64,000 bases of DNA, taken from contig JALUTY010000096.1 in assembly GCA_027021615.1 (NCBI GenBank), positions 1-64,000 of the forward strand, given 5' to 3'. Below the pieces are notes generated by a model, which worked only from the letters and a program-made list of their open reading frames with translations, was not told the origin of the DNA and made no database searches. Below, one piece after another: positions 2,589-29,047 of the stretch (positions are counted from its first letter, which is position 1; the number at the start of each line of letters is the position of its first letter). Position numbers and translations under genes: made by a program. This DNA comes from a bacterium (GTDB lineage Bacteria; Desulfobacterota; Deferrisomatia; Deferrisomatales; Deferrisomataceae).

Positions 2589-5210
2589 TTACAGCTTCAC
2601 CCTCCGGAGCCGCAGGGCGTTACCCACCACCGACACGGAGCTGAAGCTCATGGCTGCGGCCGCGATGATGGGGCTCAGGAGCAGGCCGAAGGGTGGGTAC
2701 AGGACCCCGGCAGCGATCGGCACGCCCAGGCTGTTGTACGCAAACGCCCAAAACAGGTTCTGCTTGATGTTGCGCATGGTTGCCCGGCTCAGCTTGCGGG
2801 CCCGCACGATGCCCCGGAGGTCCCCCTTCACCAGGGTCACCCCGGCGCTCTCCATGGCCACGTCGGTTCCCGTGCCCATGGCGATCCCGATCTGGGCCTG
2901 GGCCAGGGCCGGGGCGTCGTTGATGCCGTCGCCGGCCATGGCCACGAATCGGCCCTCCTCTTGATAGCGCTTGACCACGCTGGCCTTGTCCTCGGGCAGC
3001 ACCTCGGCCACCACCTCATCGATGTCCAGACGCCGGGCCACGGCCTCGGCCGTGGTGCGGCTGTCGCCGGTGAGCATGACGATCCGGATCCCCTCGTCAT
3101 GGAGCTGCTGGATCGCCTCGGGCGTGGTCTCCTTGATGGGGTCCGTCACCCCGAGGAGCCCGGCCGGCCTGCCGTCCACGGCCACGAGCATGACCGTCTG
3201 GCCCTCGGCCCGAAGATCCTCGGCCCTCTTGCCGAGCGGTCCGGGATCGACGCCCAGGTCGTCCAGGAGCTTCTTCGTGCCCAGCACCACCTCGGCCCCG
3301 TCCACATGGCCTCGGACGCCTTTGCCGGTGATCGATTCGAAGCCTTCCACCGCCGCCAGTTCCACCCCCCGGTCTCCGGCGCCGGCCACGATCGCCGCGG
3401 CCAGCGGGTGCTCGCTGGCCCGCTCGAGACTGGCGGCTAGGCGCACGAGGCGCTGCTCGTCCATCCCCTCGGCCGGCTCCACCGTCACCAGTCTGGGCTT
3501 GCCCTCGGTCAGGGTGCCGGTCTTGTCCACCACCAGGGTATCCACCTTGCGCATGTGTTCGATGGCCTCGGCGTTCTTGAACAACACCCCCATCGTGGCA
3601 CCCTTTCCGGTGGCCACCATGATCGACATGGGGGTAGCCAGTCCCAAAGCACAGGGGCAGGCGATGATCAGCACGGCCACCGCGTTGATCAGCCCGTGGG
3701 CCAGGCGTGGATCGGGCCCGAACAACGCCCATATGACGAAGGTGAGCACGGCGATCAGCACCACGGCTGGCACGAAGTAGCCGGCCACCTGGTCGGCCAG
3801 CTTCTGGATGGGGGCCCGGCTGCGCTGGGCCTCGGCCACCATCCGCACGATCTGGGCGAGTAGGGTCTCGGCCCCTACCCTTCTGGCCTCCATCACGAAC
3901 GAGCCGGTGGCGTTCACCGTGGCGCCGGTCACGGGGTCGCCCGGTCCCTTCTCCACCGGCACTGGCTCACCGGTGATCATGGACTCGTCCACGTTGGAGC
4001 GCCCCTCCACCACCACCCCGTCGACCGGGATCTTTTCGCCGGGCCGGACCCGGAGCCGGTCACCGGGCTTGACCTGGTCGAGGGGTACGTCCTTCTCGGT
4101 GCCGTCGGGTAGCACGAGGCGGGCCGTCTTGGGGGCGAGCCCGAGAAGAGCCCGGATGGCTGCCCCGGTTTGGCTGCGTGCCTTGAGCTCCAGCACCTGC
4201 CCCAACAGGACCAGGGTCACGATCACCGATGCGGCCTCGAAGTACACCGCCACCTGTCCGGACTCGTCCCGGAACGAAGGGGGGAAAATGTCGGGAAAGA
4301 TAGTGGCGATTACGCTGTAGGCGTACGCCACGCCGACGCCGAGCCCGATCAGGGTAAACATGTTGAGGCTGCGGTTCACCACCGACTGCCAGCCTCGCAC
4401 GAAGAACGGCCAGCCGCCCCACAGGATGACGGGGGTCGCCAGAACGAGCTCCACCCAGCTGAGCATCCGGCTGGAGCCCAGCTGCCCCAAGGGGCGGCCG
4501 GGCAGGTACTCGGACATGGCGATCAGGAACACCGGCGTCGTGAGCACCGCGCTCACCCAGAACCTCCGGCGCATGTCCCGAAGCTCGGGGTTCTCTTCTT
4601 CCTCCGCCTCGGGGACCCGGGGCTCGAGGGCCATACCACAAATGGGGCACGACCCAGGTTCGTTCTGCACGATCTCGGGGTGCATGGGGCAGACGTACTC
4701 GGTGGGGCCGCCCCCGGGCACCGCGGACACCATCGGCTCGAGGGCCATGCCGCACTTGGGACAGGGGCCGGGCTCGTCCGCCACCACCTCCGGGTGCATG
4801 GGGCAGGTGTAGCGGGTGGATTCGGCCGCCTTGGGCTGGACCGGCGCCGGCTTCTCTCCCAGATACGTCCCGGGGTCCGCCCGGAACTTCTCGAGGCAGT
4901 GGGCGCTGCAGAAGGCGTAGTCCTTGCCCTGGTGGGTGTGGTGGTGCTCGCACGTTTCCGGGTCCACGGTCATGCCACACACGGGGTCGGTGGAGGGGGC
5001 CTGACCCGGGTCGACCGACCCGTCCGGCGCACCCAGATACGCCCCGGGGTCCGCCCGGAACCTCTCGAGGCAGTGGGCGCTGCAGAAGGCGTAGTCCTTG
5101 CCCTGGTGGGTGTGGTGGTGCTCGCACGTTTCCGGGTCCACGGTCATGCCGCACACGGGATCGGTGGCGGTGTGCGCTGTTGCGGAATGATGGTGCGAAG
5201 GATGGCTCAT
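2589..5210 (-). CDS. copA: CopA-like heavy-metal P1B-type ATPase with YHS-YHS-HMBD-HMBD N-terminus
   Basis: This 873-residue ATP-driven exporter probably moves Cu(I) (or Ag) out of the cytoplasm. The N-terminus has a His-rich stretch, two nearly identical YHS domains ([17 protein letters not shown]...FCSAHC) in about residues 17-115, and two heavy-metal-binding modules ([18 protein letters not shown] and [18 protein letters not shown]). The membrane and ATPase core carries the CPC ion motif ([13 protein letters not shown], about residue 517), the phosphorylation site DKTGTLTEG (about 563), SEHPLA and [26 protein letters not shown] precedes the ATG. It is the last efflux gene of the leftward operon starting at 7111. 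It lacks a classical GMTCxxC HMA domain. Confidence 0.93.
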
Positions 5211-7188: not shown

Positions 7189-7429
7189 GCTATGGCCCCC
7201 CTGCTCGGGATGCCAAAAAGCTCCTCCCGGGGGGGCAGGGAGCATGGCCCTGTGTCTCGCCGTCTCTGGGGCGTGCCTTCCGGGGGCGCGGAGACCGCCT
7301 TCTCCGCACCCCCCGCGGGGCCCATCGTGCCTCGCCCACGGTGCTCAGTATCCGCCAGGTCTGTGGAATGTTCGACGCTGACACGGGGGAGGCACCGAAA
7401 AAGCGGACGCTCGGCAAAGGATTCGGACG

Positions 7430-7445
7430 TGGCACATCGCGTGCA
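7430..7445 (+). promoter_or_regulatory. sigma-54 promoter candidate facing an apparently gene-free stretch
   Basis: TGGCACATCGCGTGCA matches TGGCAC-N5-TTGCA with one mismatch and correct GG-N10-GC spacing. The 7112-7615 interval has no convincing gene. About 60-80 bases downstream, AAAGGGGGTGATAC precedes a five-codon frame (ATG at 7522, TAG). A leader RNA, an antisense RNA against the 7616-7954 gene, or chance are all possible. Confidence 0.3.
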
Positions 7446-7615
7446 GAGGGCTCTTGTGCCGGCCGGGTCTGGCGTGCGGACACGTCCTTCCGGGTCGAGC
7501 CCACGCGAAAGGGGGTGATACATGGCCCACCCTCGTTAGTCCCCCCCACATGCCAGGTCCTGGGCACGACCCAAAACTGCCCGTTTCTTGTCGTGTTGCA
7601 GGCAGGAGGGGCGGA

Positions 7616-9881: not shown

Positions 9882-10520
9882 ATGAAGCTTCGACTCGTGG
9901 TTGTGGTCTCGTTGCTCGCGGTGCTGCTGGGAAGCTCTGCTCAGGCCTCCCACGCCCGGGCCCGGGTCGGGATCGTTCCGGAGGGGTTCGAGATGAGAGC
10001 TGTGCCGGATGCGGCGGCTGCCGCGCGCTACACCCGGTTGTACGTTGCAGCTCTCGGGCTGAAGGGGCTTCAGGTGCGTCGGGTGGCTATTACTAGAACA
10101 GAGGGCTACTTTTACGTGTACGTTGCGGAGCGGTCCACCGGAAGGGGCGCGTTCACCTTGGAGATCACGCCCCAGGGCCGGCTCTCTGTCAGGAGGTTCC
10201 CGTCCATGGACCCCGAGATGATGTGGAACCAGAAGTACGGCCACCGTGCCCGCAGAGACCTGGGCATGATCCGCGAGCGGCTGACCCCCGAGCAGGCGCG
10301 GGCCCGGGCCGCGAAAGCGATCCCGGCCTCGACCGGGCTCCGGCTCGGTTCCCAAGAGCACTATTACGGGTACCTGTTGGTGTTCCTCCTGGACCCGGGA
10401 GGCCGCTGGGTCGGAGAGGCCGCGGTGAACACGGTGAGCGGCCGGGTGGTGTGGGCCCGGTTTGCGGGGGGGACGCCCGCCGTGGTTCCTCCCTCGGCAG
10501 ACCCGGCGAGTGGGGAATAG
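9882..10520 (+). CDS. secreted PepSY-like protein, unknown function
   Basis: This 212-residue protein has a signal peptide (MKLRLVVVVSLLAVLLGSSAQA). GGAGGAGCGG precedes the ATG. A first beta-rich part (YVYVAERSTGRGAFTLEITPQGRLSV) is followed by LTPEQARARAAKAIPAS and GGRWVGEAAVNTVSGRVVWARF. The pattern of 'xxAxxxAxxA...V.t.tG.vv' recalls PepSY repeats, but the match is loose. It is transcribed alone, away from the GerMN unit, with a terminator candidate after it. Confidence 0.5.
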   Translation: MKLRLVVVVSLLAVLLGSSAQASHARARVGIVPEGFEMRAVPDAAAAARYTRLYVAALGLKGLQVRRVAITRTEGYFYVYVAERSTGRGAFTLEITPQGRLSVRRFPSMDPEMMWNQKYGHRARRDLGMIRERLTPEQARARAAKAIPASTGLRLGSQEHYYGYLLVFLLDPGGRWVGEAAVNTVSGRVVWARFAGGTPAVVPPSADPASGE

Positions 10521-10561
10521 TGCCCATGCAAGTGGAGAATAGTCCGCAGCTCACGGACTCC

Positions 10562-10703: not shown

Positions 10704-11024
10704 ATGCGCGTGGGGTGGATCGGTAAGAGCTTGGGGTGGACCGAGGTGCTGGAGGCCGCCGGATTCTACGTGGTGCCGGTCGGTGACGATGGACGCGCCT
10801 TGAGGCCGGGACAGGTGGACGTGGTGGTGTGCTGGGGGTCGTGGCCTCCCGGCGGGCAGTGGCCGTCGGTGCCTGTGGTGTGGTGCCCCGGCACGGTGCG
10901 CGCCTGCTTGGATGGGGAGCCGGCCCGGCGCGCCCATGTTATCCTGCCGGCCCCGGTACGGGCGGTGGACCTCCTACGGGCGATCGAAGAGGCCCTGGAC
11001 CTGCGGTGGCAGGGGCTTCGGTGA
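10704..11024 (+). CDS. hypothetical protein with receiver-like pattern
   Basis: This 106-residue protein starts at MRVGWIGKSLGWTE. GGAGGCCGAG precedes the ATG, which is preferred over ATG 10620. The pattern LEAAGFYVVPV..., VDVVVCWG..., ARRAHVILPAPVRAVDLLRAIEEAL resembles a degenerate response-regulator-like alpha/beta fold, but no phospho-acceptor Asp region is clear. There is no signal peptide, so it is probably cytoplasmic. A sigma-54 promoter candidate lies just upstream, which would place it in the island regulon. The function is unknown. Confidence 0.5.
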   Translation: MRVGWIGKSLGWTEVLEAAGFYVVPVGDDGRALRPGQVDVVVCWGSWPPGGQWPSVPVVWCPGTVRACLDGEPARRAHVILPAPVRAVDLLRAIEEALDLRWQGLR

Positions 11025-13060: not shown

Positions 13061-14470
13061 TTAGTACGCCCACGCCAGCGTCAGCATGTTGAGCCAGGCG
13101 GTGTCGTTGGCGTTCACCTGGTCCTCGATGCCCTGGCCCGGCACGAAGGCCGAGAAGATGTTGTCGATGGAGAAGTTCTTGTTGAACTTGTACTTGAGCT
13201 GGAGGTCGAAGGTGGTGCCGGCGTAGTCGTCCACTTCCTCGCCGGGGTCCTTCGCGTTGGTCAGGTTGCCGGTCTCGTCGTACCAGATGAAGAACGCCTG
13301 GGCCTTGTAGGAGAGCTTCGGCACGAGCTGCCCCAGATCGCCCTTGGCGCCCACCGCGATCAGCCGCTGGCCCGGGTTGTTGCCGGAGCCGCCGTTGCCG
13401 ATGCCGCCGTAGCCGTTGCCGCCCACGGCCCGCTCCGGCGCGTAGGCATAGAGGGACGCGCCGTAGGGGCTCGCGCCCGAGGCCAGGTGCTCGCCCAGGA
13501 TGTTGCCGTCCATGCCCATGAGGGGGGTGAACCGGCCGATGTCGGTGATGCCGAGCCAGCCCTCGACGTCGTCGTCGCTGGAGTCGTCGTCACCGCGGGT
13601 GTACCGGAACGCCACGTAGGGGTTGAGCGCCTTGCTCACCGGCACCTCGAGCCCTGCGAACGCGGCCCAGGAGCGCACGTCCGGGCCGCCGTCCTCGAAC
13701 TCGCCGTTGGCGGCCACCACCTCGAAGCTGGGCTTCACGGGCCCGATCTGGCCGAGCCCCTCCAGGCCGTAGTAGGTCACGTTCACGTTCTTGGCCTCGT
13801 TGTCGCTGTACGCGACGAGGGGGCTCACCGTGAACTTGCCCATGCCCGTGTCGAGCGTGGCGTTCACCTTGGCCGTGTACACCCTCCAGTCGCCGGTCTG
13901 CCAGTCGTCCCGGGTTCCGATCAGGTCCGAGTTCTGGATGGGCATGTACAGCAGCTCGTACGAGAGCATATCGCCCACCTTGCCCCGGAACCCCACGAAC
14001 GGGTGGTCGTCGCCGTACAGGAGACCCCCGGTCTTCAGGTCCAGGAACCGGATGTCCCAGCCGGTCTCCAGCTGCAGCTCGGGGGCGAAGGTGTAGAGGA
14101 ACTCGGCCCGCTCGATCCCGAACTCGCCGCCCGCGTTGGGCTGGTTGTTCTTCGTTGCGCCCACATAGAACGAGCGATCGCCGTTGTCCTTGTTCATGAT
14201 CACGTCGGACTCGGCGATCATCTTCACCGACCAGTTGTCGCCCTTGGCCTTCCAGCCGAGCCGCAGCTCGGCGCGGATGTGCTCGCCCGAGGCCCACCCG
14301 CCCTCGTTCAGGGCCGGGGCGTCGCCCTTGGAGTCGTCGAAGTCGAAGTTGTTGTAAAAGGTGGGCTTGATCTTGGCGGTCCCGAAGAACTGGACGGCCG
14401 CTTGGGCCGGTAGGGCCAGGCCCACCGCGGCGATCGTGGCGAGGGCGATCTGGGAAACGGTTCTTCTCAT
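13061..14470 (-). CDS. porin-like outer-membrane beta-barrel protein
   Basis: This 469-residue protein begins MRRTVSQIALATIAAVGLAL with cleavage near PAQA/AVQFFG. Many amphipathic strands follow (LRLGWKAKGDNWSVKMIAESDV, FLYTFAPELQLETGWDIRF, LSYELLYMPIQ, PYVAFRYTRGDDD) and the chain ends WLNMLTLAWAY with a terminal aromatic, typical of porins. Asp-rich loops (DDDSSDDDVEG) and a Gly-rich loop are present. AAGGAGGAGTCCTC precedes the ATG. It is probably strongly expressed from the sigma-70 promoter at 14601-14629. The substrate is unknown; an alginate-export-like or general porin fold is likely. Confidence 0.7.
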   Translation of the reverse strand: MRRTVSQIALATIAAVGLALPAQAAVQFFGTAKIKPTFYNNFDFDDSKGDAPALNEGGWASGEHIRAELRLGWKAKGDNWSVKMIAESDVIMNKDNGDRSFYVGATKNNQPNAGGEFGIERAEFLYTFAPELQLETGWDIRFLDLKTGGLLYGDDHPFVGFRGKVGDMLSYELLYMPIQNSDLIGTRDDWQTGDWRVYTAKVNATLDTGMGKFTVSPLVAYSDNEAKNVNVTYYGLEGLGQIGPVKPSFEVVAANGEFEDGGPDVRSWAAFAGLEVPVSKALNPYVAFRYTRGDDDSSDDDVEGWLGITDIGRFTPLMGMDGNILGEHLASGASPYGASLYAYAPERAVGGNGYGGIGNGGSGNNPGQRLIAVGAKGDLGQLVPKLSYKAQAFFIWYDETGNLTNAKDPGEEVDDYAGTTFDLQLKYKFNKNFSIDNIFSAFVPGQGIEDQVNANDTAWLNMLTLAWAY

Positions 14471-14540
14471 GAGGACTCCTCCTTTTTCTGTGAGACTTCC
14501 ATGGTGACTTTCGGATGTGCGTGATGCTCGGGTCTGCCGT

Positions 14541-14629: not shown

Positions 14630-14790
14630 CAAAAAAATAACGCTGTTTGAAATTGTATATTATTCGACAGCTCTGCGGAATATTCATCAGGAGCCTCCCT
14701 TCCAACCCGGCGGCCGGGTCCCGGGCCCCGGGTGAAAGATCTTACCTAAGTCTCGGCCCTTACGGCTGTCGGCCATCAAGCATCTGGTGC

Positions 14791-14806
14791 TGGCACGGTT
14801 GGTGCA
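14791..14806 (+). promoter_or_regulatory. sigma-54 promoter candidate of the putative small RNA
   Basis: TGGCACGGTTGGTGCA matches TGGCACG-N4-TTGCA with one mismatch and exact GG-N10-GC spacing. Predicted start is near 14818. The only downstream element is a very strong terminator 45-80 bases away. Confidence 0.5.
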
Positions 14807-14817
14807 TGAACGCCGAG

Positions 14818-14898
14818 CACATGGGAGTCGCCCCAACCCGATTCCCATTCCTCCTGTAGAGGGGGGAAGGGTCTGGTCCACCCTTCCCCCCTTTTCTT
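14818..14898 (+). ncRNA. putative sigma-54-dependent small regulatory RNA (~80 nt)
   Basis: The stretch between the promoter candidate and the terminator can fold as a 5' hairpin (ATGGGA at 14821-14826 with TCCCAT at 14843-14848) with a C-rich loop (CCCCAACCC), then an unpaired TTCCTCCT (14848-14855), then the terminator stem. A C-rich loop plus exposed anti-SD CCUCCU is typical of small RNAs that occlude ribosome binding sites. Seven bases (TCCTCCT) can pair with AGGAGGA at the porin start. No credible protein is encoded. This is a prediction from promoter, fold and terminator only. Confidence 0.45.
14861..14898 (+). terminator. strong intrinsic terminator
   Basis: GGGGGGAAGGGT (14861-14872) and ACCCTTCCCCCC (14880-14891) form a perfect 12-bp stem with a 7-base loop, followed by TTTTCTT. 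No annotated gene ends here, which is the main reason to propose the small RNA. Confidence 0.85.
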
Positions 14899-15300: not shown

Positions 15301-15320
15301 TCGGAGCCCCAGACGGCGCC

Positions 15321-15348
15321 GGGCCCCCTGGAGGGTTCCAGGGGGCCC
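15321..15348. other. perfect stem-loop downstream of the tiny-protein operon
   Basis: GGGCCCCCTGGA and TCCAGGGGGCCC form a 12-bp stem with a 4-base loop, about 36 bp past the stop at 15385. No T-run follows on either strand, so it may be an RNA 3'-end stabiliser or a Rho-assisted end rather than a classical terminator. Confidence 0.5.
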
Positions 15349-15384
15349 GGAGGGGCGGGGCGGGTGGAGGGGGCTAGAGGCGGG

Positions 15385-15534
15385 CTATCGAACCAGGTCG
15401 ATCGCCTCCATGGTGGTGGTGCGTTCCATCGTCGGGCAGGAGCACCCAGCTGCCGCGGTGGCTGGGGCCGCCAGGCTCACCGTGCCGGCGGCCAGGATCG
15501 TCAGGAGCAGGGCGAGAAACGTTGCGCGCTTCAT
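15385..15534 (-). CDS. tiny secreted CxC protein, paralog 2 (49 aa)
   Basis: The ATG at 15534 follows an ideal GAAGGAGGTGACCC. The product has a signal peptide (MKRATFLALLLTILAAG, cleavage near ATA/AAG) and a mature part of about 22 residues: GCSCPTMERTTTMEAIDLVR. Its start, signal sequence, Cys-x-Cys and C-terminal EAxDLVR are shared with the neighbouring 48-aa protein, so the two arose by duplication. The Cys could instead be a lipid-modified residue in a weak lipobox (AAGC). I know of no family. It is second in a two-gene operon, 20 bp after its paralog, under a sigma-54 promoter candidate. Metal binding or a secreted signal are guesses. Confidence 0.7.
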   Translation of the reverse strand: MKRATFLALLLTILAAGTVSLAAPATAAAGCSCPTMERTTTMEAIDLVR

Positions 15535-15554
15535 GGGTCACCTCCTTCGGTGCG

Positions 15555-15701
15555 TTAGCGCACCAGGTCTGTGGCTTCCAGGTTGGTGGTGGTCTGCTGG
15601 GCCGAGCTGCACCCACACGCCGACGCGGCAGGGGCGGCCAGGCTCACGCCCGTGATGCCGAGCAGGGCCAACAGGACGGTGAGAGCTGCGATGCGTTTCA
15701 T
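15555..15701 (-). CDS. tiny secreted CxC protein, paralog 1 (48 aa)
   Basis: The ATG at 15701 follows TAAGGAGGTGGAACC. The product has a signal peptide (MKRIAALTVLLALLGITG, then VSLAAPAASA) and a mature part CGCSSAQQTTTNLEATDLVR. Compared with its paralog, the mature regions conserve CxC, a Thr triplet, and E-A-x-D-L-V-R at the very end. Strong ribosome sites on both genes suggest high translation when induced. The site at 15753-15768 would start the message about 40 bases upstream. It lies divergent from the sensor kinase gene, which suggests a dedicated target of that two-component system. Confidence 0.7.
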   Translation of the reverse strand: MKRIAALTVLLALLGITGVSLAAPAASACGCSSAQQTTTNLEATDLVR

Positions 15702-15752: not shown

Positions 15753-15768
15753 AGCATAGGGCGTGCCA
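15753..15768 (-). promoter_or_regulatory. sigma-54 promoter of the tiny CxC operon
   Basis: The minus strand reads TGGCACGCCCTATGCT: the -24 element TGGCACG is perfect and the -12 element ATGCT has one mismatch, with correct spacing. Start is near 15742. An inverted repeat TATGC-N9-GCATA (15791-15809) lies 24 bases above it as a possible activator site. Confidence 0.6.
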
Positions 15769-15839: not shown

Positions 15840-15868
15840 TTGACAAGGGTTCGGTTTAGATGAATATT
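15840..15868 (+). promoter_or_regulatory. sigma-70 promoter candidate for the sensor kinase operon
   Basis: TTGACA (15840-15845), a 17-base spacer and AATATT (15863-15868, four of six matches) face the kinase gene at 16021. The 15780-15870 stretch is AT-rich compared with the window. Confidence 0.45.
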
Positions 15869-16020
15869 CTGCGGGTTGAAGAAAACTCGACAGGCCAGGG
15901 GGGCGGTGGTAGCCTGCCGGGCCATGGAGTTCGATAGAACGGCGGAAAATCGAGGGGTTCGGTACAACGGTACGTCCCTTGCTTTGGACTCCGGCCGACC
16001 GTTGCCGGAGGAATCACGCC

Positions 16021-17173
16021 ATGCTGGTCAACGACCCGAGGAAGGACTTCTGGATCAAGGTGAGCGCGGTGGCCGTGCTCGTGTTCGGCGTGTCGCTCCT
16101 GCACTACGGCACGACCACGGCCCGCCCCCTGCTCCACGACGTGTACCGTCGTCTCTACTACATCCCCGTGGGGCTGGCCGCCGTGTGGTTCGGTCTGCGC
16201 GGGGGGCTCGCCGTATCCGGGGTGGTGGCAGCGATCTACGTGCCGCACATCATTATTTACTGGAACGATATGGGCCGGGAGCTGTGGAACCGGGTCATGG
16301 AGGTGGGGTTGTACTTTGTGTTCTCGGGGCTGGTGGGCTTCTTCACCGACCGTGACCGGGCCTACCGGCGCCGGCTCCAGATGGCCAACGAGCGCCTGGA
16401 GAGGTCGTACGATGAGCTGCGCCGTCAGGCGGACACCCTGTTCCAGGTGGAGGAGCAGCTCCGGCGGGCCGACAGGCTTTCGGCCATCGGTCAGCTCGCC
16501 GCCGCGGTGACCCACGAGATCCGCAACCCGCTGGGCGCGATCAAGGGGACGGCCGAGATCCTCCGCGACGAGTTCCCACCGGGCCACCCCAAGGCGGAGT
16601 TCCTGGAGATCCTGCTCAAGGAGACCGATCGACTCAATCAGGTGGTGGAGGAGTTCCTGGGGTACGCCCGACCTGGCAGCACCGACGAGGGGGAGGCGGT
16701 GGACCTGGCGCAGATCGCTCGGCAGGTGGTGGGGTTCCTGTCCACCCCGGCCCGAAAGGCCGGGGTGACGGTGGCGCTGGAGGGCGACGAGACCGTGCGG
16801 GTGGGTGGGCGACCGGCACAGCTCAAGCAGGTGCTCCTCAACCTGGTGTTGAACGCGGTCCAGGCCACGCCCCCCGGCGGGGGCGTGACCGTCCGGGTGG
16901 GCGGGTGTGACGGCCGGGTCCTGGGGGCCGAGTACCGGGAGGTGGCCGGGCGGGTGGCCCGGCTGTGTGTGGAGGACGAAGGGCCCGGGTTGCCCCGTGG
17001 AGAGGAGCAGCGGGTGTTCGAGCCGTTCTTCACGACCAAAGACGAGGGTACGGGGTTGGGCCTTGCGATCAGCCGTAAGATCGCGGAGGCCCACGGAGGG
17101 ACGTTGGTGGCGGAGAACCGCCCCGAGGGGGGGTCACGGTTCGTGCTGACCCTTCCGGCGCTGGAGGAGGCGG

Positions 17174-17181
<8 letters not shown>
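16021..17181 (+). CDS. membrane sensor histidine kinase (NtrB/ZraS type)
   Basis: This 386-residue kinase has about four transmembrane helices in residues 10-115 with only short loops, so it probably senses through the membrane or a small periplasmic surface. A coiled linker (RRRLQMANERLERSYDELRRQ) leads to the HisKA box AVTHEIRNPLGAIKGTAEIL (phospho-His about residue 163), the N box NLVLNAVQATPPGG, the G1 box EDEGPGLP, FEPFFTTKDEGTGLGLAIS and the G2 region. GGAGG precedes the ATG at 16021. The stop overlaps the start of the activator gene by 8 bp. The signal is unknown; metal stress is inferred from the neighbours. Confidence 0.9.
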
Positions 17182-18544
<1,363 letters not shown>

Positions 18545-18975: not shown

Positions 18976-18989
18976 GATTGCTCAAAAGA

Positions 18990-19376
18990 ATGACATCGGT
19001 TCAGCGTTGGGTCGCAACACGCCTGGTGGCGGCGATGGTGCTCCTGGGGTTCGCGTCCCCCGGGGCTGCCGCGTGCGGTGCGTCGTGCTGCCCCTCCATG
19101 CCGTCGGGGCACGGCCCCGAGCGCCAACCGTCCCCGGCTTGCTGCTGCGGTCATGCCCCAATTCCCTGCGACCTCCACGAGGACATCGGGGGCCGCGTTC
19201 CCGATGCGGCCGTGGGGGCCACGTCGTTCTTCCCCCCGGTCCAAGGTGTCGGGCTCGCCCCGATCCCGCTGGCGCCTGTTCCCCCCACCGGGCCCCTCGG
19301 ATCCGAGCGGATCCGCCCCTCAGGCGCCTCTCCCCCCGCCGACCTGTACCTTCGAAACCTCTCCTTCCTGTGTTGA
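18990..19376 (+). CDS. Cys-rich secreted protein
   Basis: This 128-residue protein has a signal peptide (MTSVQRWVATRLVAAMVLLG, cleavage near GAA/ACG). The mature N-terminus is dense in Cys and His: ACGASCCPSMPSGHG, then ACCCGHAPIPCDLHED, about eight Cys in 45 residues. The remainder is Pro-rich and probably disordered, ending NLSFLC. The ATG at 18990 is preferred over a TTG at 18978. Soft-metal binding is a reasonable inference. The gene lies between the arms of a long inverted repeat and downstream of the regulator, so it may have arrived as a unit. Confidence 0.55.
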   Translation: MTSVQRWVATRLVAAMVLLGFASPGAAACGASCCPSMPSGHGPERQPSPACCCGHAPIPCDLHEDIGGRVPDAAVGATSFFPPVQGVGLAPIPLAPVPPTGPLGSERIRPSGASPPADLYLRNLSFLC

Positions 19377-19775: not shown

Positions 19776-20176
19776 ATGAAATATCCGTGGAAATGGTGGG
19801 CGGGGGTGCTGGTTGGAGGGGCGGTGTTGGCCGTGTGGCCGGCGTTCGCCGGGCTTCCGGCGGGGCCCCGGCCGCCGCGGCCACCGATCGGGTTCTGTTC
19901 GCGGTGGAAGGCCTTTCCTTCGGCAGTTGTGAAGGTCAGGTGGTCCAAGCCCTGCAGGTCCAGCCCGGGGTGCGGGCGGTCGGCGTGGACCTGCGGGCGG
20001 GACGGGTGGTGGTGGAGTACGAGCCCTCGGTGGTCGACGCGAAGCGGCTGGCCGACGCCGTGACCCGCATCGGGTACCCGGCCCGATATCTGGCCTCCGG
20101 CCCTTCCGTGCCGCGGGGACAGTGGGGCCGGGCCGATGACGGCGGGTGTGGAGGGAGCTGCTGTCAGGATGCCTAA
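19776..20176 (+). pseudogene. secreted HMA-domain (MerP/CopZ-like) protein, frameshifted
   Basis: GAGGAGACGTGACG precedes ATG 19776, which opens a signal peptide (MKYPWKWWAGVLVGGAVLAV, then WPAFAG). That frame then loses sense. From about 19845 another frame encodes a heavy-metal-associated fold: VLFAVEGLSFGSCEGQVVQA, GVRAVGVDLRAGRVVVEYEP, ADAVTRIGYPARYL, with a C-terminal GGCGGSCCQDA. A one-base deletion or two-base insertion near 19840-19885 would join them. The metal loop has a single Cys (GSC) instead of CxxC. It is either a pseudogene, an assembly error or, less likely, a programmed frameshift. It would otherwise be a periplasmic metal carrier beside the efflux operon. Confidence 0.65.
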
Positions 20177-20270
20177 TAGTCCACAGGCGGTTGGAGAATA
20201 GTCTTCATGCCGCCGTTCTCAAGAGGAAATCCTTTGTGCTAACAGGTGAGAATAACGGGGGAATGGTGGC

Positions 20271-20286
20271 TGGCACATGGGTTGCT
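20271..20286 (+). promoter_or_regulatory. sigma-54 promoter of the cus-like efflux operon
   Basis: TGGCACATGGGTTGCT is a perfect match to TGGCAC-N5-TTGCW. Transcription would start near 20297, about 100 bases before the first TolC gene. It is the best of the sigma-54 sites in the window by sequence. Confidence 0.75.
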
Positions 20287-20395
20287 CCTTGGGCCGCCGG
20301 CCCGTGACGGCGACGCGAGTTCGGTTTGCGAATTCCTGGCCCCCGGGTATAACGGCTGCCGTCTGCTGGGTTTTTCGAAAACCGGAGAGAGTGGG

Positions 20396-21727
20396 ATGAA
20401 ACGAACCGTTGGATGGATGATGGGTGCGCTGGCGGTCGCCGTTGCGGTGACGCCGATCCGGGCCGCCGAGGCCCCGACCGCTTTGGAGGCCCGGCTCCGG
20501 AGCGGCCCCTCGGTGGCGGATCTGGTGACCTACGCGTACCAAACCAACCCCAAGATCGAGGCGGCCCGGCAGAAGTGGAAGGCCGTGGTGGAGCGCTACC
20601 GGGTCTCCACGGCGTACCCCGACCCCCAGGTCATGGTGACCTACTTCCCCGAGCCGATCGAGACCAGGCTGGGGCCCCAGGACTGGAACGCGGTGCTGAG
20701 CCAGATGATTCCGTTCCCCGGCAAGCTCTCGAAGGCCGGGGAGGTGGTGGAGGCGGACGCGCGCATCGCCCGGCTGAAGCTCGACAAAACGGTCCGGGAC
20801 GTGATCGTGGCGCTTCGCGAGTCGGTCCACGAGCTGCTCTACATCCGCCGCGCCAGGCAGGTGGTGGCCGCGAACCGGAAGCTCCTGGACCACATGCGCA
20901 AGGTGGCCGAGACCTCCCACGCCGGCGACCGGGCCACGTTCGTGGACGTGGCCAAGGCCCAGTCCCAGCGGGCCCAGCTGGAGTACGACGCCCTCCTGCT
21001 CGAGGAGCTCGAGGCGACCGAGCGCGCCCGGTTGAACGCGTTGCTCAACCGCGCTCCGGACGCCGAGCTGGGGCCTCTGCCGGAGGTCCCGTTCCAACCC
21101 CTGGCCTACAGCCTCGATGAGATCCACGAGCTGGCGGCCAAGCGGCAGGAGGAGATCCGGATCGCCGAGGCCCGGGTGGCGAAGGCGAGGGCCAAGCTGG
21201 ACCTGGCTCGGTACGAGAACCGCCCGGACTTCAAGGTGGGGCTGTTCTACGCGGGCGTCGGAGAGCCGGACGTGGCCAACGAGCCCGATGATGCTGGCCG
21301 CGACGCCCTGGGCGTGCAGTTCGGCATGACGATCCCCCTGTGGCTCGGGAAGAACGCGGGCCGAACCTCGGCCGCTCGCGCCGAGATCAAGCGGGCACGG
21401 GCCCTGAAGGTTGCGCGGATCAACGACACCGACGCGGCCATCCGGAGCGTCTACTTCCGCCTCAAGAATGCGGAGCGGCTGGTCACGCTGTACCGGGACG
21501 AGCTCCTGCCCCAGGCCGCCCAGTCCCTGGACGTGGCCGAGACGTGGTTCCAGGAGGGGGAGGGAAGCTTCAGCGACTTCGTGGAGACCCAGTCGGTGTA
21601 CTACAACTTCCAGCTCTCCCTGGCCCGGGCCGAGGCTGACTACGGAAAGTTCCTGGCCCGGCTGGAGCGGCTGACGGCCACGAGCCTGACCCGGCGGGAA
21701 GGAAGCGCCGAGGAGGGGAAGCGATGA
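20396..21727 (+). CDS. TolC-family outer-membrane efflux protein, first of two
   Basis: This 443-residue protein has a signal peptide (MKRTVGWMMGALAVAVAVTP) and two TolC-type halves, each with a long helical hairpin: LVTYAYQTNPKIEAARQKWK...YPDPQVMVTYF and LAAKRQEEIRIAEARVAKAR...GVQFGMTIPLW. It corresponds to CusC/CzcC, the outer-membrane channel of the tripartite pump, although it lacks an obvious lipobox Cys. GGAGAGAGTGGG precedes the ATG. It opens a five- or six-gene operon and overlaps the next gene by ATGA. Confidence 0.88.
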   Translation: MKRTVGWMMGALAVAVAVTPIRAAEAPTALEARLRSGPSVADLVTYAYQTNPKIEAARQKWKAVVERYRVSTAYPDPQVMVTYFPEPIETRLGPQDWNAVLSQMIPFPGKLSKAGEVVEADARIARLKLDKTVRDVIVALRESVHELLYIRRARQVVAANRKLLDHMRKVAETSHAGDRATFVDVAKAQSQRAQLEYDALLLEELEATERARLNALLNRAPDAELGPLPEVPFQPLAYSLDEIHELAAKRQEEIRIAEARVAKARAKLDLARYENRPDFKVGLFYAGVGEPDVANEPDDAGRDALGVQFGMTIPLWLGKNAGRTSAARAEIKRARALKVARINDTDAAIRSVYFRLKNAERLVTLYRDELLPQAAQSLDVAETWFQEGEGSFSDFVETQSVYYNFQLSLARAEADYGKFLARLERLTATSLTRREGSAEEGKR

Positions 21728-23313
21728 GACGGTTACGGAGTTGGATCCGCCGCACGCCAGGGCTTTGGGCCCTGGGTGCCGTCGTGCTCGCGGGGGCGCC
21801 GGCCTGGGCCGGGTACGGGGAGCTGAGCGATCAATGGGAGTCCTACCAGCCCGAAGGGCTGTACCAAACCCAGACCGCTGCCGCGCCGGCCGCTGCTCCG
21901 GCAAAAGCGGAATCCGCCGGCAGCGACGAGTTCGAGCGCCAGAAGGAGGTCCTGGCGCAGGCCCGGAAGCGGTGGACGGAAGCGCTGGCTCAACCAGCAC
22001 CGTCGGAAGGGTTCTACTCGCCGCCGGCCGAAGCACTCGCACGGCTTCGGGACGCGGCTGACGACGCCGAGGTCGCCGCCCGGGCGCTCGCCGTCGACGG
22101 GATCACCTTGGAGGATCTGGAGGTGCTCACCTGGCTGCGCAACCCCGGGATCCGTGCCGCCCAGGACCGGTTGCGCGGAGTGCTGGAGCGCTACACCCAG
22201 GCTTGGAATCTCGACGAGATCCTGCGCCAGTACACGGCCTTCACCGAGGGTCTGATGAACGGGGTGGGGCCCATGAAGGGGCGGGAGCCTGTGCAGATGC
22301 GGTTCCCCTTCCCTGGTCTGCTGGCCTTGAAGGGCGAGATCGTCACCCAGGAGGTGAGGGCGGCTGCCGAAGGGCTCGAGATCGCCCGGCGTACCGCGAT
22401 CACCAACATCCGCAAGGCATACTGGAACCTGGAGTTCGTGACCGAGGCCGAGCGGATCACGGCGGAGATGCTCGACCTGCTCGAACGGCTCGAGTCCGTG
22501 GCCAAGGCCCGGTACGAGTCGGGAAAGACCAACTTCCAGGACGTGATCCAGGTACGGATCCGGCGGGAGACCGTGACCGAGGACGTGCAGACCCTGTTCG
22601 AGCAGCGCCACACCGTGGAGTCGAAGCTCCGCGAGATCCTGGACCTGCCCCCGGACGCGGCAGTGGGACGGCCGACCAAGGTCGAGCCCGTACGCAACGT
22701 GCCCCAGCTTGGCCCCCTGTACGAGCTGGCCCTGGACCGGCGCCAGGAGCTGCGAAGGCTCCGGGCGCAGGTGGGCAAGATGGAGCGGATGATCGAGCTG
22801 GCCGAGACGCGGATCTACCCTGACTACACCCTGAACCTCTCCCTGTACCAGGACGAGGCGGTGACCCAGGTGGGCACGGCCCGCATGAAGGAGCCGTTCG
22901 CCACGGTGACCACGGCTTCGGTGGGGGCGGGGCTGCCCAAGATGCCGTGGTACGGCCGCGGGGACGCTTATGTCCGCGAGACCCGCCAGAAGCTCGATGC
23001 CCTGCGGCAGCGCCTCCGCAAGGAAGAGGCCGCCGCCCGCTTCGGAGTCCACGACGCCTGGTTCCGGCTGGACCGCGCCGCCCGGGAAGAGGCTCTGTAC
23101 GCCGGCAAGGTGGTGGACCTGTCCCGAGCGGCCCTCGACGTGGCCACCCGGGGGTACGAGGCCGGCGAGGTGATGTTTGCCGACGTGATCGGCTCGTACA
23201 TGGGGTGGCTCGGAGCGAATCTGACCGAGGCTCGAAAGCGCGCCGATCTGGGGGTGGCCTGGGCCGAGCTGGCCGAGGCGATCGGGGTGGACCAACGGGG
23301 TACGAACCGGTAG
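21724..23313 (+). CDS. TolC-family outer-membrane efflux protein, second of two
   Basis: This 529-residue protein has a signal peptide (about residues 1-29, ending PAWA/GYGEL) and an extra ~80-residue N-terminal segment rich in Gln and Ala before the TolC-like core (LRNPGIRAAQDRLRGVLERY, MRFPFPGLLALKGEIVTQEV). The second half carries TLNLSLYQDEAVTQVGTARM and LPKMPWYGRGDAYVRETRQ. It is translationally coupled to the first TolC gene. Two adjacent outer-membrane components for one pump are uncommon; the pair might form mixed channels or serve different partners. Confidence 0.85.
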   Translation: MRRLRSWIRRTPGLWALGAVVLAGAPAWAGYGELSDQWESYQPEGLYQTQTAAAPAAAPAKAESAGSDEFERQKEVLAQARKRWTEALAQPAPSEGFYSPPAEALARLRDAADDAEVAARALAVDGITLEDLEVLTWLRNPGIRAAQDRLRGVLERYTQAWNLDEILRQYTAFTEGLMNGVGPMKGREPVQMRFPFPGLLALKGEIVTQEVRAAAEGLEIARRTAITNIRKAYWNLEFVTEAERITAEMLDLLERLESVAKARYESGKTNFQDVIQVRIRRETVTEDVQTLFEQRHTVESKLREILDLPPDAAVGRPTKVEPVRNVPQLGPLYELALDRRQELRRLRAQVGKMERMIELAETRIYPDYTLNLSLYQDEAVTQVGTARMKEPFATVTTASVGAGLPKMPWYGRGDAYVRETRQKLDALRQRLRKEEAAARFGVHDAWFRLDRAAREEALYAGKVVDLSRAALDVATRGYEAGEVMFADVIGSYMGWLGANLTEARKRADLGVAWAELAEAIGVDQRGTNR

Positions 23314-23376
23314 CCAGCTCCTCCTTCCGACGGCTGACGACCGACGATCAACGACCACGGCTTAGGAGTTCTTTAC

Positions 23377-24912
23377 ATGGCAACGAACACCGAGAACAAG
23401 AAACCCCGATCCACCATGCGGGTGGCCCTCGCAACCGCTGTGGTGACCCTGGGCATAGCCGGGGGGACTGCCTACTTCCTCGGTTGGCTCTCGCCTCCGG
23501 GAGCCGGCGTGGCCACGGCGCCCCAGCCGGTGGGTGAGGCTGGAGGGCAGAAGGGCGAGAAGACCCTGTACACCTGCGGCATGCACCCCTGGATCATCTC
23601 GGAGGAGCCGGGGACCTGCCCAATCTGTGGCATGGAGCTGGTGCCCAAGCGCGACGAGGCCTCCGAGGCCAAGGCCACAGCCTCCGGGAAGAAGGAGCGC
23701 AAGATCCTGTACTGGCGGGCACCCATGAACCCCACGGAGATCTACGACCGCCCCGGCAAGAGCAAGATGGGCATGGACCTGGTGCCGGTGTACGAGGACG
23801 AGGTGGTCGGGGGGGTGGAGGTCCGGATCGACCCGGTGATCCAGCAGAACATGGGTATCCGGACGGCGCCGGTGGAGAAGGGGCCGCTGGTCCGCACCAT
23901 TCGCACCTACGGCCACGTGACCTACGACGAGACCCGCACCGCCACGGTGAGCCCCAAGTTCGGGGGCTGGATCGAGAAGCTCTACGTGGACTTCACCGGC
24001 CAGTTGGTGAAGAAGGGGGACCCGCTTTTCGAGATCTACTCCCCGGACCTGGTCTCGGCCCAGGAGGAGTACCTCACCGCCTACCGGAGCCTGAGCGAGA
24101 CCGAGGGCGGATCGGATCTCCTGGCGTCGGCCCGCCGCCGGCTGGAGTACATGGACATCCCCCCCGACCAGATCCGGGCCATCGAGAAGTTCGGCAAGGT
24201 ACGCCGGACCCTCTTGATCCGGTCGCCGTTCACCGGCGTGGTCACCCACAAGAAGGCGGTGGAGGGGGTGTTCGTGAAGGCCGGTCAGCCCGTGTACCAG
24301 ATCGCTGACCTGTCAAAGGTCTGGGTGGAGGCCCACATCTACGAGTACGAGCTGCCCTGGGTGAAGGTCGGGCAGGAGGCCCGGATGACCCTGCCCTACC
24401 AGCCGGGCAAGGTGTACGTGGGCAAGGTGACCTACGTGTACCCCTACCTCCAGCGGCAGACCCGGGATGTGGTGATCCGGCTGGAGTTCGAGAACCCCGG
24501 CCTGGAGCTCAAGCCCGACATGTACGCCGACGTGGAGCTGCGCACCACCCTGCCCGGCCAGGGCCTGCTGATTCCCTCCGAGGCGGTGCTCCGGTCCGGG
24601 GAGCGCAACGTGGTGTTCGTGACCCGGGGCGACGGCAAGTTCACGCCCCGGGAGGTGACCCTGGGGCTCGAGGTGGACGGCGGGAAGGTGCAGATCCTAT
24701 CGGGGGTGGCCGAGGGGGAGTACGTGGTCACGTCCGGCCAGTTCCTCCTGGACTCCGAGTCCAAGCTCAAGGAGGCCGTGCAGAAGATGCTCGAGGCCAA
24801 GATGGGCAAGCCCAAGGCCGAGAAGCCGGCCAAGTCGTCCGACGATTTCTTCAACGACATGGACGGTGGCGACGCGGGCAAGAAGAAGGACGACTTTTTC
24901 GAGGACATGTGA
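23377..24912 (+). CDS. cusB: CusB-like periplasmic adaptor with heavy-metal-binding modules
   Basis: This 511-residue RND adaptor has an N-terminal membrane anchor (about 12-32). A metal module YTCGMHPW...CPICGMELVPK and a degenerate second copy (RAPMNPTEIYDRPGKSKMGM) follow. The hairpin, lipoyl and beta-barrel domains are visible: GWIEKLYVDFTGQLVKKGDP, SPFTGVVTHKKAVEGVFVKAG, VWVEAHIYEYELPWVKVGQ. It passes Cu/Ag from the periplasm to the pump and docks the TolC partner. The C-terminus has duplicated DDFF(N/E)DM acidic-aromatic motifs. TAGGAGTTCTTTAC precedes the ATG. Confidence 0.9.
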   Translation: MATNTENKKPRSTMRVALATAVVTLGIAGGTAYFLGWLSPPGAGVATAPQPVGEAGGQKGEKTLYTCGMHPWIISEEPGTCPICGMELVPKRDEASEAKATASGKKERKILYWRAPMNPTEIYDRPGKSKMGMDLVPVYEDEVVGGVEVRIDPVIQQNMGIRTAPVEKGPLVRTIRTYGHVTYDETRTATVSPKFGGWIEKLYVDFTGQLVKKGDPLFEIYSPDLVSAQEEYLTAYRSLSETEGGSDLLASARRRLEYMDIPPDQIRAIEKFGKVRRTLLIRSPFTGVVTHKKAVEGVFVKAGQPVYQIADLSKVWVEAHIYEYELPWVKVGQEARMTLPYQPGKVYVGKVTYVYPYLQRQTRDVVIRLEFENPGLELKPDMYADVELRTTLPGQGLLIPSEAVLRSGERNVVFVTRGDGKFTPREVTLGLEVDGGKVQILSGVAEGEYVVTSGQFLLDSESKLKEAVQKMLEAKMGKPKAEKPAKSSDDFFNDMDGGDAGKKKDDFFEDM

Positions 24913-25059
24913 CCACGGGGCAGCCGGCGCGGCCCGGCCTCCACTGTCGGGCCCAGAAGTCGGCGCCCAGGGGTTCGGAAAGTTCGGATTTGAGCCCTGT
25001 ACCCGGCCCGGAGGCCGTTCTGACGGGTGGAGGCAAACGATGGCGCGAGAACACGAGGG

Positions 25060-25112
25060 GCTTCCGCTTTCAGCGGGCTAGCCTCCTAGTCTCCTAGCTT
25101 TCCAGCGGAAGG
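25060..25112. repeat. octamer-array repeat between adaptor and pump genes
   Basis: GCCTCCTA-GTCTCCTA-GCTTTCCA-GCGGAAGGCC lies within the operon, ending just before the pump ATG at 25118. It therefore falls in the mRNA and may overlap the ribosome binding region (GCGGAAGGCCGAC). Confidence 0.6.
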
Positions 25113-25117
25113 CCGAC

Positions 25118-28100
25118 ATGATTGAAAAGATCATCGAATGGTCGATCAACAATAAGTTTATGGTGATCCTGGCCACGGTGTTCGTGATCCTGGGCGGGGT
25201 GCTGGCCATGACCAACACCCCCCTGGATGCGATCCCGGACCTGTCGGACGTGCAGGTGATCATCTACACCGAATACCCGGGCCAGGCCCCCCAGGTGGTG
25301 GAGGACCAGGTCACCTATCCACTCACCACGGCCATGCTGGCCGTGCCTTACGCCAAGGTGGTGCGGGGATACTCGTTCTTCGGGTTCTCCTTCGTCTACA
25401 TCATCTTCGAGGACGGAACCGACCTGTACTGGGCCCGGAGCCGGGTGCTCGAGTACCTGAACTTCGTGGCCGGCCGGCTGCCCCAGGGGGTGACCCCGAG
25501 TCTGGGCCCCGACGGCACCGGGGTGGGGTGGATCTACGAGTACGTCCTCAAGGACACCACCGGCACCCATGACCTCTCGGAGCTGCGGTCCCTCCAGGAC
25601 TGGTACCTACGCTACGAGCTGACGGCCGTTCCCGGCGTGTCGGAGGTCGCCAGCGTGGGTGGGTTCGTGAAGCAGTACCAGGTCGAGGTGGATCCGAACA
25701 AGCTGTTGGCCTACGGGATCCCCATCCAGAAGGTGCGCCGGGCGATTCAGCGATCCAACAACGACGTGGGCGGCAAGCTCATCGAGATGGGGGAGACCGA
25801 GTTCATGGTGCGGGGCAAGGGGTACCTGCGAAGCATCGAGGACATCGAGAACATCTCGATCGGGGTGGACAAGTTCGGCACCCCGGTGCTGTTGAAGCAG
25901 GTGGCCGACGTGCATCTGGGGCCCGAGCTCAGGCGCGGCATCCTGGAGTGGAACGGTGAGGGCGAGGCCGTGGGCGGGGTGGTGGTGATGCGGTTCGGCG
26001 AGAACGCCCTCGAGGTGATCCGGAAGGTCAAGGAGAAGCTCAAGGACCTGGAGAAGGGCCTGCCCGAGGGCGTGGTGATCGAGACGGGCTACGACCGGTC
26101 GGCCCTGATCCTGAGAGCGGTGGACACCCTGAAGGGGAAGCTCATCGAGGAGATGACGGTGGTGGCGATCATCTGCGTCATCTTCCTGCTGCACTTCCGG
26201 TCCGCGTTCGTGGCGATCTTCACCCTGCCCGTGGGCATCCTGATGTCGTTCCTGGTGATGTACGCCCTGGGGATCAACGCCAACATCATGAGCCTGGGGG
26301 GAATCGCCATCGCCATCGGGGTGATGGTGGACGCCTCGGTGGTGCTGGTGGAGAACGCCCACAAGCACCTGGAGCACGATCGGGGCAAGCGCCCCCACAT
26401 CGAGATCATCGTGGAGGCCTCGAAGGAGGTGGGACCGGCGCTGTTCTACAGCCTCTTGATCATCACGGTGAGCTTCCTGCCGGTGTTTGCCCTGCAGGAG
26501 CAGTCGGGCCGGCTCTTCAAGCCTTTGGCCTACACCAAGACGTTTGCCATGGCGGCCTCGTCGATTCTGGCCATTACCATCATCCCGGTGCTCATGACCT
26601 TCTTCGTGCGGGAAGAGACGTTCTCGCCCGAAACGTCGCGCCGACGTCGGTTCTGGACCTGGGCCAGCGCCGTGGCCGGCCCCCCGGCCCTGGTGGTGGC
26701 CGGGGGAGTGGCGGGGCTCGCGCTCCCGGACTGGAGCCTGGTGGCGGCCCTGGGGGTGTCGGCCTTCGCGGCGGTGTGCCTGGTGCCCCAGCGGATGATC
26801 CCCGAGGCGAGGAACCCGATCAGCCGGTTCTTCATCCGCCTGTACCTGCCGTTCATCCGCACGGTGCTCAAGTGGCGCAAGACCACCGTCCTGGTGGCCC
26901 TGGTGGCCGTGGTGGTTACCTGGTACCCCCTGTCGCGGTTGGGCAGCGAGTTCATGCCACCCCTGAACGAGGGGGATCTCCTGTACATGCCCACGACGCT
27001 CCCGGGGATCTCCATCACCAAGGCCAAGGAGATCCTCCAGCAGACCGACAAGATCATCCAGAGCTTTCCCGAGGTGCACCACACCCTGGGCAAGATCGGC
27101 CGCGCCGAGACAGCCACCGACCCGGCGCCCCTGTCGATGATCGAGACCACCATCATGCTCCGGCCCCAGGTGGAGTACGAGGAGATCCCGGTTCAGCGGT
27201 TCTTCTCGGGCTGGCCGGGCTGGCTCAAGGAGCCCCTGACCTGGATCTGGCCCGAGGTGAAGCGGGGCAAGGTGCTCCACGAGTGGCGCAAGAAGAAGGT
27301 AGAGCGGTTCTTCTCGAGCTGGCCCGACTGGATCCGAGCACCCCTGGCCAAGATCTGGCCCGAGGAGCGGTACCTTACCACCGACGAGCTGGTGGAGGAT
27401 CTGGACCGGGCCATCCAGTTCCCGGGGCTCACCAACGCCTGGACCATGCCGATCAAGACCCGGATCGATATGCTCTCCACCGGCATCAAGACCCCGGTGG
27501 GGATCAAGCTGATGGGGCCGGATCTGCAGGTGCTCTCGGATCTGGGTGCCAAGATCGAGGCGGTGGTGCGGGACATCCCGGGCACGCTGTCGGCCTACTC
27601 CGAGCGGGTCACCGGCGGCAACTACGTGGACTTCGAGATCGACCGCAAGGAGATTGCCCGGTACGGCCTCACGGTGCAGGACGTGCAGGACGTGATCATG
27701 ACCGCCATCGGCGGCATGAACGTGACTTACACGGTCGAGGGGCTCGAGCGCTACCCGGTGAACCTGCGCTACAGCCGGGAGCTGCGGGACGACCTGGAGA
27801 AGCTCCGCCGCGTGCTGGTGCCCACGCCCACCGGGGCTCAGGTGCCCCTGGGGCAGCTGACGAAGATGTCGATCATTAAAGGCCCACCGAGCATCAAGAG
27901 CGAGAACGCCCGCCAGACCGCGTGGATCTACGTGGACCTGAAGGGGGTGGACGTGGGGTCTTACGTGGAGCAGGCCAAGAAGGTGGTGGAGCGGGAGGTG
28001 AAGTTCCCGGCGGGGTACTCCATCGTGTGGTCCGGCCAGTACGAGTACATGCAGAAGGCCCGTAAGACCTTGAACGTGATCGTCCCGATCACCCTGGTCG

Positions 28101-28642: not shown

Positions 28643-28708
28643 ACCCCTTTGAACCCGCCGTTGGGGAGGGGGCCGGCCCCCCAGCGGCACAACCCATGGA
28701 GTCACCGC

Positions 28709-29047
28709 ATGAAACTGATCCGAGCCTACATCCGCGTAGAGCGGGCCGACGAGGTCCTGGACGCCCTGAGCCATGCCGGTATCGTGAACGCCACCCTGAC
28801 CCACGTGCTGGCTGTGGGCCCCAATCAGGACCCCGACCAGAGCAAGGTGAGCATGGAGTTCGGCCGACGGGTGAACCGCATGGTCAAGCTGGAGCTGATC
28901 TGCCCGGACAAGGACGAGGGAAAGATGGTCGAGACGATCCGAAAGGCCGCCTGTACCGGACAGCCCGGCGACGGGGTGGTGGCCGTGCAGAACCTGAACC
29001 GGTTGGTGAAGATCCGCACGGCCGAGGAGAGTGTGGACGCGTTGTGA
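28709..29047 (+). CDS. PII-like signalling protein of the efflux operon
   Basis: This 112-residue protein starts MKLIRAYIRVERADEVLDAL and ends NLNRLVKIRTAEESVDAL. The fold order matches PII/GlnK (beta-alpha-beta with VKLELICPDKDEGKMVETIR and GDGVVAVQNLNRLVKIRT), but the T-loop (GPNQDPDQSKVSMEFGRR) lacks the uridylylated Tyr context of GlnB. PII-like proteins of this type are known next to heavy-metal RND genes. It could gate the pump from the cytoplasm through nucleotide or metal binding. It lies 66 bp after the pump gene in the same operon. Confidence 0.75.
   Translation: MKLIRAYIRVERADEVLDALSHAGIVNATLTHVLAVGPNQDPDQSKVSMEFGRRVNRMVKLELICPDKDEGKMVETIRKAACTGQPGDGVVAVQNLNRLVKIRTAEESVDAL

Follow-up and report, generated by a model that had tools for sequence, protein, structure and literature searches.

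Two short cysteine-containing peptides encoded beside an NtrC-type two-component system in a Deferrisomataceae bacterium: candidate periplasmic metal-binding peptides

Mature peptides of about 25 residues are easily missed by annotation. Two candidates of this size are encoded next to a two-component system in a stretch of 64,000 nucleotides from a bacterium of the Deferrisomataceae (contig JALUTY010000096.1; the whole stretch is referred to as the window), which raises the questions whether they are genuine genes, what controls them, and which function they may serve. An initial annotation had described both as exported paralogues under sigma-54 control, and had proposed metal-binding, lipopeptide or signalling roles. 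This paper addresses these questions by comparison with related genomes.

The peptide genes and their divergent two-component system

Both open reading frames were present exactly where the initial annotation had placed them, with signal-like N-termini, a CxC motif, and EAxDLVR ends:

15,555 to 15,701, minus strand: peptide A, 48 aa, predicted to be exported, with CGC; MKRIAALTVLLALLGITGVSLAAPAASACGCSSAQQTTTNLEATDLVR
15,385 to 15,534, minus strand: peptide B, 49 aa, predicted to be exported, with CSC; MKRATFLALLLTILAAGTVSLAAPATAAAGCSCPTMERTTTMEAIDLVR
about 15,316 to 15,354, minus strand: conserved GC-rich hairpin closing the peptide operon, fold of -35 kcal/mol
15,753 to 15,768, minus strand: sigma-54 promoter of the peptide operon, TGGCACGCCCTATGCT
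15,858 to 15,893, no strand: GAATATTC ... TTGAAGAAAACTCGACAG, probable regulator sites preceding the peptide promoter, conserved and with a motif common to the other promoters of the island
16,021 to 17,181, plus strand: membrane sensor histidine kinase (HisKA and HATPase_c)
17,174 to 18,544, plus strand: NtrC-type response regulator (Response_reg, Sigma54_activat and HTH_8)

A and B are paralogues with 54% identity. Each carries the consensus ribosome site AAGGAGGTG, as near-ideal as had been claimed, and the genes lie 20 bp apart on the same strand with the strong hairpin behind them, in agreement with the proposed two-gene operon. Both genes are intact in each of the three genomes of the genus examined (G000, G001 and G002), and no second copy of the pair was found elsewhere in its own genome (4.25 Mb in 134 contigs). 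Among these three genomes the identity amounts to 96-100% for A and about 90% for B, pairwise pN/pS ranges from 0 to 0.10 for A and from 0.11 to 0.20 for B, and the substitutions in A and B are distributed over codon positions 1, 2 and 3 as 14, 4 and 60. The possibility that relatives would lack coding constraint is contradicted by these values, since pN/pS ratios of 0-0.20 and the codon-position bias identify both A and B as constrained coding genes. The Thr cluster that had been noted in both peptides is present, but its length is not fixed in B, where it varies by one in-frame Thr codon (TTT or TT).

Crude hydrophobicity inspection and the A-x-A sites suggest that A and B are exported to the periplasm and would be about 23-26 residues long after maturation; mature A contains two Cys, zero His and zero Met, and mature B two Cys and two Met. 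Neither peptide matches a Pfam or NCBIfam family. In a protein search of 39 relatives with peptide A the genuine matches were confined to the genus, and the weak matches outside it were rejected, being signal peptides or frames open by chance. When 395 genomes of the phylum were searched with a profile built from eight peptides, this search found members in this order and none further; nine extra weak matches were set aside, the four that were translated being unrelated proteins that matched via their N-termini.

The sigma-54 promoter named in the initial annotation is one mismatch off consensus and is retained by each of the three genomes of the genus; TGGCACGCCCTATGCT and TGGCACGNNNNTTGCW differ at one position, and the G001 version reads TGGCACGTCCTATGCT. 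The kinase-regulator pair is divergent from the peptide operon, as had been stated, and its proposed NtrC-type link is supported by comparison with relatives. The regulator passes the PF00072, PF00158 and PF02954 cut-offs, which places it in the NtrC-type (sigma-54) class; the ZraS and ZraR equivalog scores were not reached (187 bits vs 479, and 428 vs 760, respectively). Judged from sequence, the sensor region of the kinase appears to consist mostly of membrane helices and short loops. In the membrane domain (window 16,021 to 16,440, plus strand), His 28, 39 and 76 are invariant in the five aligned genomes, and it is possible that they form a membrane-embedded metal site.

The same slot in other families

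Four other genomes of the order (G004, G005, G006 and G007), which span three families, carry orthologues of both the regulator (73-79% identity) and the kinase (59-62%). In G007 and G005, a one-mismatch sigma-54 promoter points in the opposite direction from the kinase gene and leads into the gene of an exported-type peptide (MKHAAILTLLAALLSFGAAGIASADDCSCKKTTAPTSTKTMSTYSPGPTDFSP and MKTLSALIATLSLFVFAAAAFAGFTHHAHMGDHCTAVSTGSTSNLTEHDMLP). The check for homologues proposed earlier was thereby answered in two ways: the pair itself recurs throughout the examined genus, and diverged peptides stand beside orthologous NtrC-type pairs in two other families, one with CSC and one with HHAHMGDHC, both having a stretch of Thr/Ser and ending in a similar way at the C-terminus. 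The architecture common to the slot peptides consists of a signal, a Cys/His cluster, a Thr/Ser stretch, and a D[LFM]xx end. The G007 and G005 peptides did not align significantly with A and B in local alignment, and their kinship therefore rests on position and architecture. When A and the G005 peptide were anchored at the C-terminus, none of 5000 shuffles scored as well, in a comparison that was picked after the sequences had been seen.

Two slots argue against the peptide-regulon model. The G004 slot encodes an 81-aa exported protein with His and without Cys, behind a weaker (two-mismatch) sigma-54 site; the G006 slot encodes a 153-aa protein that resembles a universal stress protein and is not a peptide, and no sigma-54 site was found there. 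As a separate observation, the apparent universal stress protein and an apparent acetate kinase face the sensor kinase in G006 (L042, 9,850 to 11,300), with a near-perfect regulator site between.

Among more distant relatives, G012 and G051 have a sigma-54 promoter opposite the kinase, and the gene behind it encodes a YHS-domain protein whose tail is rich in His and Met (in G051 the YHS score lies under the curated cut-off); a TolC relative lies farther along. Elsewhere, some kinases of this type adjoin HMA, FtrD-like and Met-rich exported proteins. A kinase search of named genomes was dominated by the generic kinase motif, the one good membrane-domain match being in a Geobacteraceae MAG.

A candidate regulon with an efflux island and a small RNA

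Several further features lie around the peptide operon, some of them with its promoter type and probable regulator sites and some with metal-related functions:

2,589 to 5,210, minus strand: Cu-type P1B ATPase (TIGR01511, 619 bits vs a cut-off of 397)
10,516 to 10,549, 10,643 and 10,710 to 11,024, plus strand: tandem sites, sigma-54 promoter (two mismatches) and 104-aa gene
13,061 to 14,473, minus strand: outer-membrane beta-barrel protein (weak OMP_b-brl match), divergent from the small RNA, with the same arrangement in G003
14,653 to 14,690, no strand: two tandem sites 20 bp apart ahead of the small RNA, probably bound by the regulator
14,791 to 14,806, plus strand: sigma-54 promoter of the small RNA, with a single mismatch and conserved across the three genomes of the genus
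14,816 to 14,898, plus strand: predicted small RNA of about 83 nt, with a hairpin, unpaired TTCCTCCTGTAGA and a terminator, conserved and covarying
18,978 to 19,376, plus strand: Cys-rich exported protein; G004 and G005 encode relatives of it immediately after the regulator
19,787 to 20,176, plus strand: HMA metal-binding protein (PF00403), start codon uncertain
20,271 to 20,286, plus strand: sigma-54 promoter of the efflux operon, with probable regulator sites at 20,169 to 20,208
20,393 to 29,047, plus strand: operon encoding TolC, TolC, CusB-like, CusA/CzcA and PII-like proteins

A palindrome of the type TTGTNGANTANTCNACAA, derived by eye from the G006 and window sites, is mostly tandem at 20-22 bp spacing and lies some 60-110 bp from sigma-54 promoters, namely those at 14,791 (small RNA), 15,768 (peptides), 20,271 (efflux operon) and 10,643 (104-aa gene). 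It stays conserved inside diverged DNA and is likely the binding site of the regulator. A genome-wide search for the tandem form returned the copies at 10,516 and 20,175 alone, its pattern being strict enough to miss the other two. At orthologous loci the motif beats nearly all shuffles in G006 (in part its source), G007, G004, G051 and G133; its support is weaker in G005 and G012, and absent at most of the more distant kinases.

Two products of the island, the conserved 104-aa protein and the Cys-rich exported protein, have no Pfam match and no clear Pfam match, respectively. Elsewhere in the window (7,361 to 7,590, plus strand) a further conserved site and a sigma-54-like promoter (7,430) precede a conserved, non-coding-looking transcript that ends in GTCCTGGGCACGACCCAAAACTGCCC. 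This element of about 27 nt, which has no entry in Rfam, recurs in most genomes of the order within a stand-alone tiny gene with a 22-aa open reading frame of the type MKRFMVPRVAHCSEGCPSRSWA (L177, L178 and L180-L184).

A Cu-type ATPase and/or CusABC-type genes are found near the regulator pair in the window and in G004, G005, G006 and G007, so that the linkage of metal genes to this kinase and regulator is old. The CusA/CzcA protein scores 1197 bits (TIGR00914), and the CusB-like adaptor falls below its cut-off (232 vs 390 bits). On basis of the ATPase and this adaptor, Cu/Ag is favoured over Zn/Co as the probable substrate, without certainty because of the adaptor's score. PII-NG proteins have been reported to cluster with metal pumps (PMC7726332).

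The small RNA region (14,816 to 14,898) is near-identical in the three genomes of the genus, with scrambled flanks. In G003, of the same family, a homologue is divergent from the same outer-membrane protein gene, and that genome yielded neither a kinase nor a peptide nor a close relative of the regulator. Both RNA helices covary, with four double-change pairs and 99% of cells paired in an alignment of four sequences. The unpaired segment and the stem arm next to it, ATTCCCATTCCTCCTGTAG, form a perfect 19-nt complement to CTACAGGAGGAATGGGAATG, which covers the Shine-Dalgarno sequence and start of a porin-like gene on another contig (G000:C22); this holds in all three genomes of the genus. The predicted duplex (-35.6 kcal/mol) compares with -13.5 +/- 3.8 (best -23.3) over 129 other start regions. 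By sequence, the RNA has the own promoter, intrinsic terminator and start-region seed of base-pairing small RNAs, and the natural reading is that it would repress the porin-like gene. It has no Rfam match. A similar leader is retained by relatives of the porin-like gene in G004, G005 and G007, and no convincing small RNA was found in these three genomes; weak RNA-model matches in G004, G005 and G006 were rejected, as they had no upstream sigma-54 sites.

Function of the peptides and comparison with known systems

The best reading of these data is that A and B, as members of a single NtrC/sigma-54 metal regulon, would be SilE-like peptides that are induced, exported to the periplasm and bind Cu(I)/Ag(I) there. 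A metal-binding role is the likeliest because a Cu-type ATPase, CusA/CusB/TolC and HMA proteins occur in this and orthologous loci, YHS proteins in distant ones, and Cys/His motifs in the slot peptides of two other families. The metal-binding role suggested in the initial annotation is thus favoured by gene context and motifs. Against a metal sponge, the two Cys of A are fewer ligands than known metal sponges have.

Excess metal in the envelope would be sensed by the membrane kinase, leading to phosphorylation of its NtrC-type partner. The phosphorylated regulator, bound to the tandem palindromes, would then act with sigma-54 polymerase to express the peptides, the CusCBA-like pump and the small RNA. 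The mature soluble peptides would chelate a soft metal, most likely Cu(I) or Ag(I), via their CxC thiolates, the pump would export it, and the small RNA would block translation of the porin and thereby shut the entry pore, with periplasmic buffering, export and pore closure as the joint outcome. We infer both the identity of the metal and the binding of the regulator, and the model as a whole, with on-demand metal-binding peptides, a CusCBA-like pump and a porin-blocking small RNA under one NtrC/sigma-54 system, is held to be moderately probable.

The peptides might instead be feedback modulators that, produced in large amounts after activation, bind the periplasmic face of the kinase, with or without metal, and tune the response, as feedback on the sensor kinase has been proposed for CpxP or ZraP. 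The peptide gene is divergent next to the kinase and kept in step in three families, and the conserved C-terminus is not an obvious metal ligand; however, a sensor region that appears to be mostly membrane helices leaves little periplasmic surface, and the peptides vary much faster than the kinase, which makes this role unlikely. More doubtful is a function as CusF-like chaperones that pass Cu(I) to CusB/CusA-like proteins rather than storing it: apparent co-regulation with the efflux operon and the CxC motif, a fast-exchanging thiolate motif, speak for it, but no CusF-like fold or match was found in the peptides, which are very short and encoded outside the efflux operon. Lipidation of the Cys, or processing and export of the peptides as a cue, is highly improbable despite the small size, the Cys near the presumed cleavage site and the conserved C-terminus, as the residues before the Cys (A-S-A-C and A-A-G-C) do not by inspection fit the lipobox L-[AS]-[GA]-C (they may still fit a looser PROSITE-like form), the G007 Cys lies two residues past a clear A-S-A site and is preceded by D-D, no maturation enzyme was recognised among the scanned neighbours, and metal genes lie near every locus of the order that carries such a peptide. 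The lipopeptide suggestion of the initial annotation is weakened accordingly, and nothing found points to its signalling role.

Returning to periplasmic metal-binding peptides as the preferred reading, A and B look like a new kind of such molecules, and a syntenic family of these peptides, associated with a metal-linked two-component system, would extend this group by a simple class. If the same regulator drives the porin-silencing RNA, export, buffering and outer-membrane permeability would be joined in one regulon. That this is a three-arm NtrC/sigma-54 response of Cys peptides, CusCBA-like exporter and porin-silencing RNA, with the peptides as a new, rapidly evolving class that alternates between Cys and His as metal ligands from one family to another, is a tentative proposal that we place slightly below an even chance. 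The pattern of tandem sites with a sigma-54 promoter offers a handle for finding such regulons in other genomes of the phylum.

Among known systems, ZraPSR of Escherichia coli also has a sigma-54 enhancer-binding regulator, and a metal protein of the periplasm is encoded divergently. The comparison with ZraP made in the initial annotation holds for this logic, in which a sigma-54 two-component system controls a metal protein in the periplasm, but does not extend to sequence: ZraP is a larger protein from a different family, and the regulator and kinase of the window are far under the ZraR and ZraS cut-offs. The small RNA resembles the porin-repressing MicA and RybB and the sigma-54-driven GlmY and Qrr in its short length, its dedicated promoter and terminator, and its seed against a ribosome-binding site, and differs in its apparent control by a metal-linked NtrC-type regulator and its 19-nt perfect complement.

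CorSR of Myxococcus xanthus (PMC3707914) is likewise a copper two-component system of the NtrC type. Its copper cluster, which includes a His-rich exported protein and CopA, has several putative sigma-54 promoters; CorS differs in having one transmembrane segment and a HAMP domain, and tiny Cys peptides or a small RNA are not described in the parts of that account consulted. SilE and PcoE are also small periplasmic proteins, adjoining a two-component system and a CusCBA-like exporter and expressed from their own inducible promoter, and SilE has been proposed to act as a metal sponge (PMC5008109). Judged via Pfam and NCBIfam family models, no similarity to SilE/PcoE was detected, and mature A and B do not have the many His/Met motifs of these proteins. 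SilE counts 143 aa, is His/Met-based and belongs to the SilRS system, whereas A and B, at 48-49 aa, are Cys-based and linked to a sigma-54/NtrC system.
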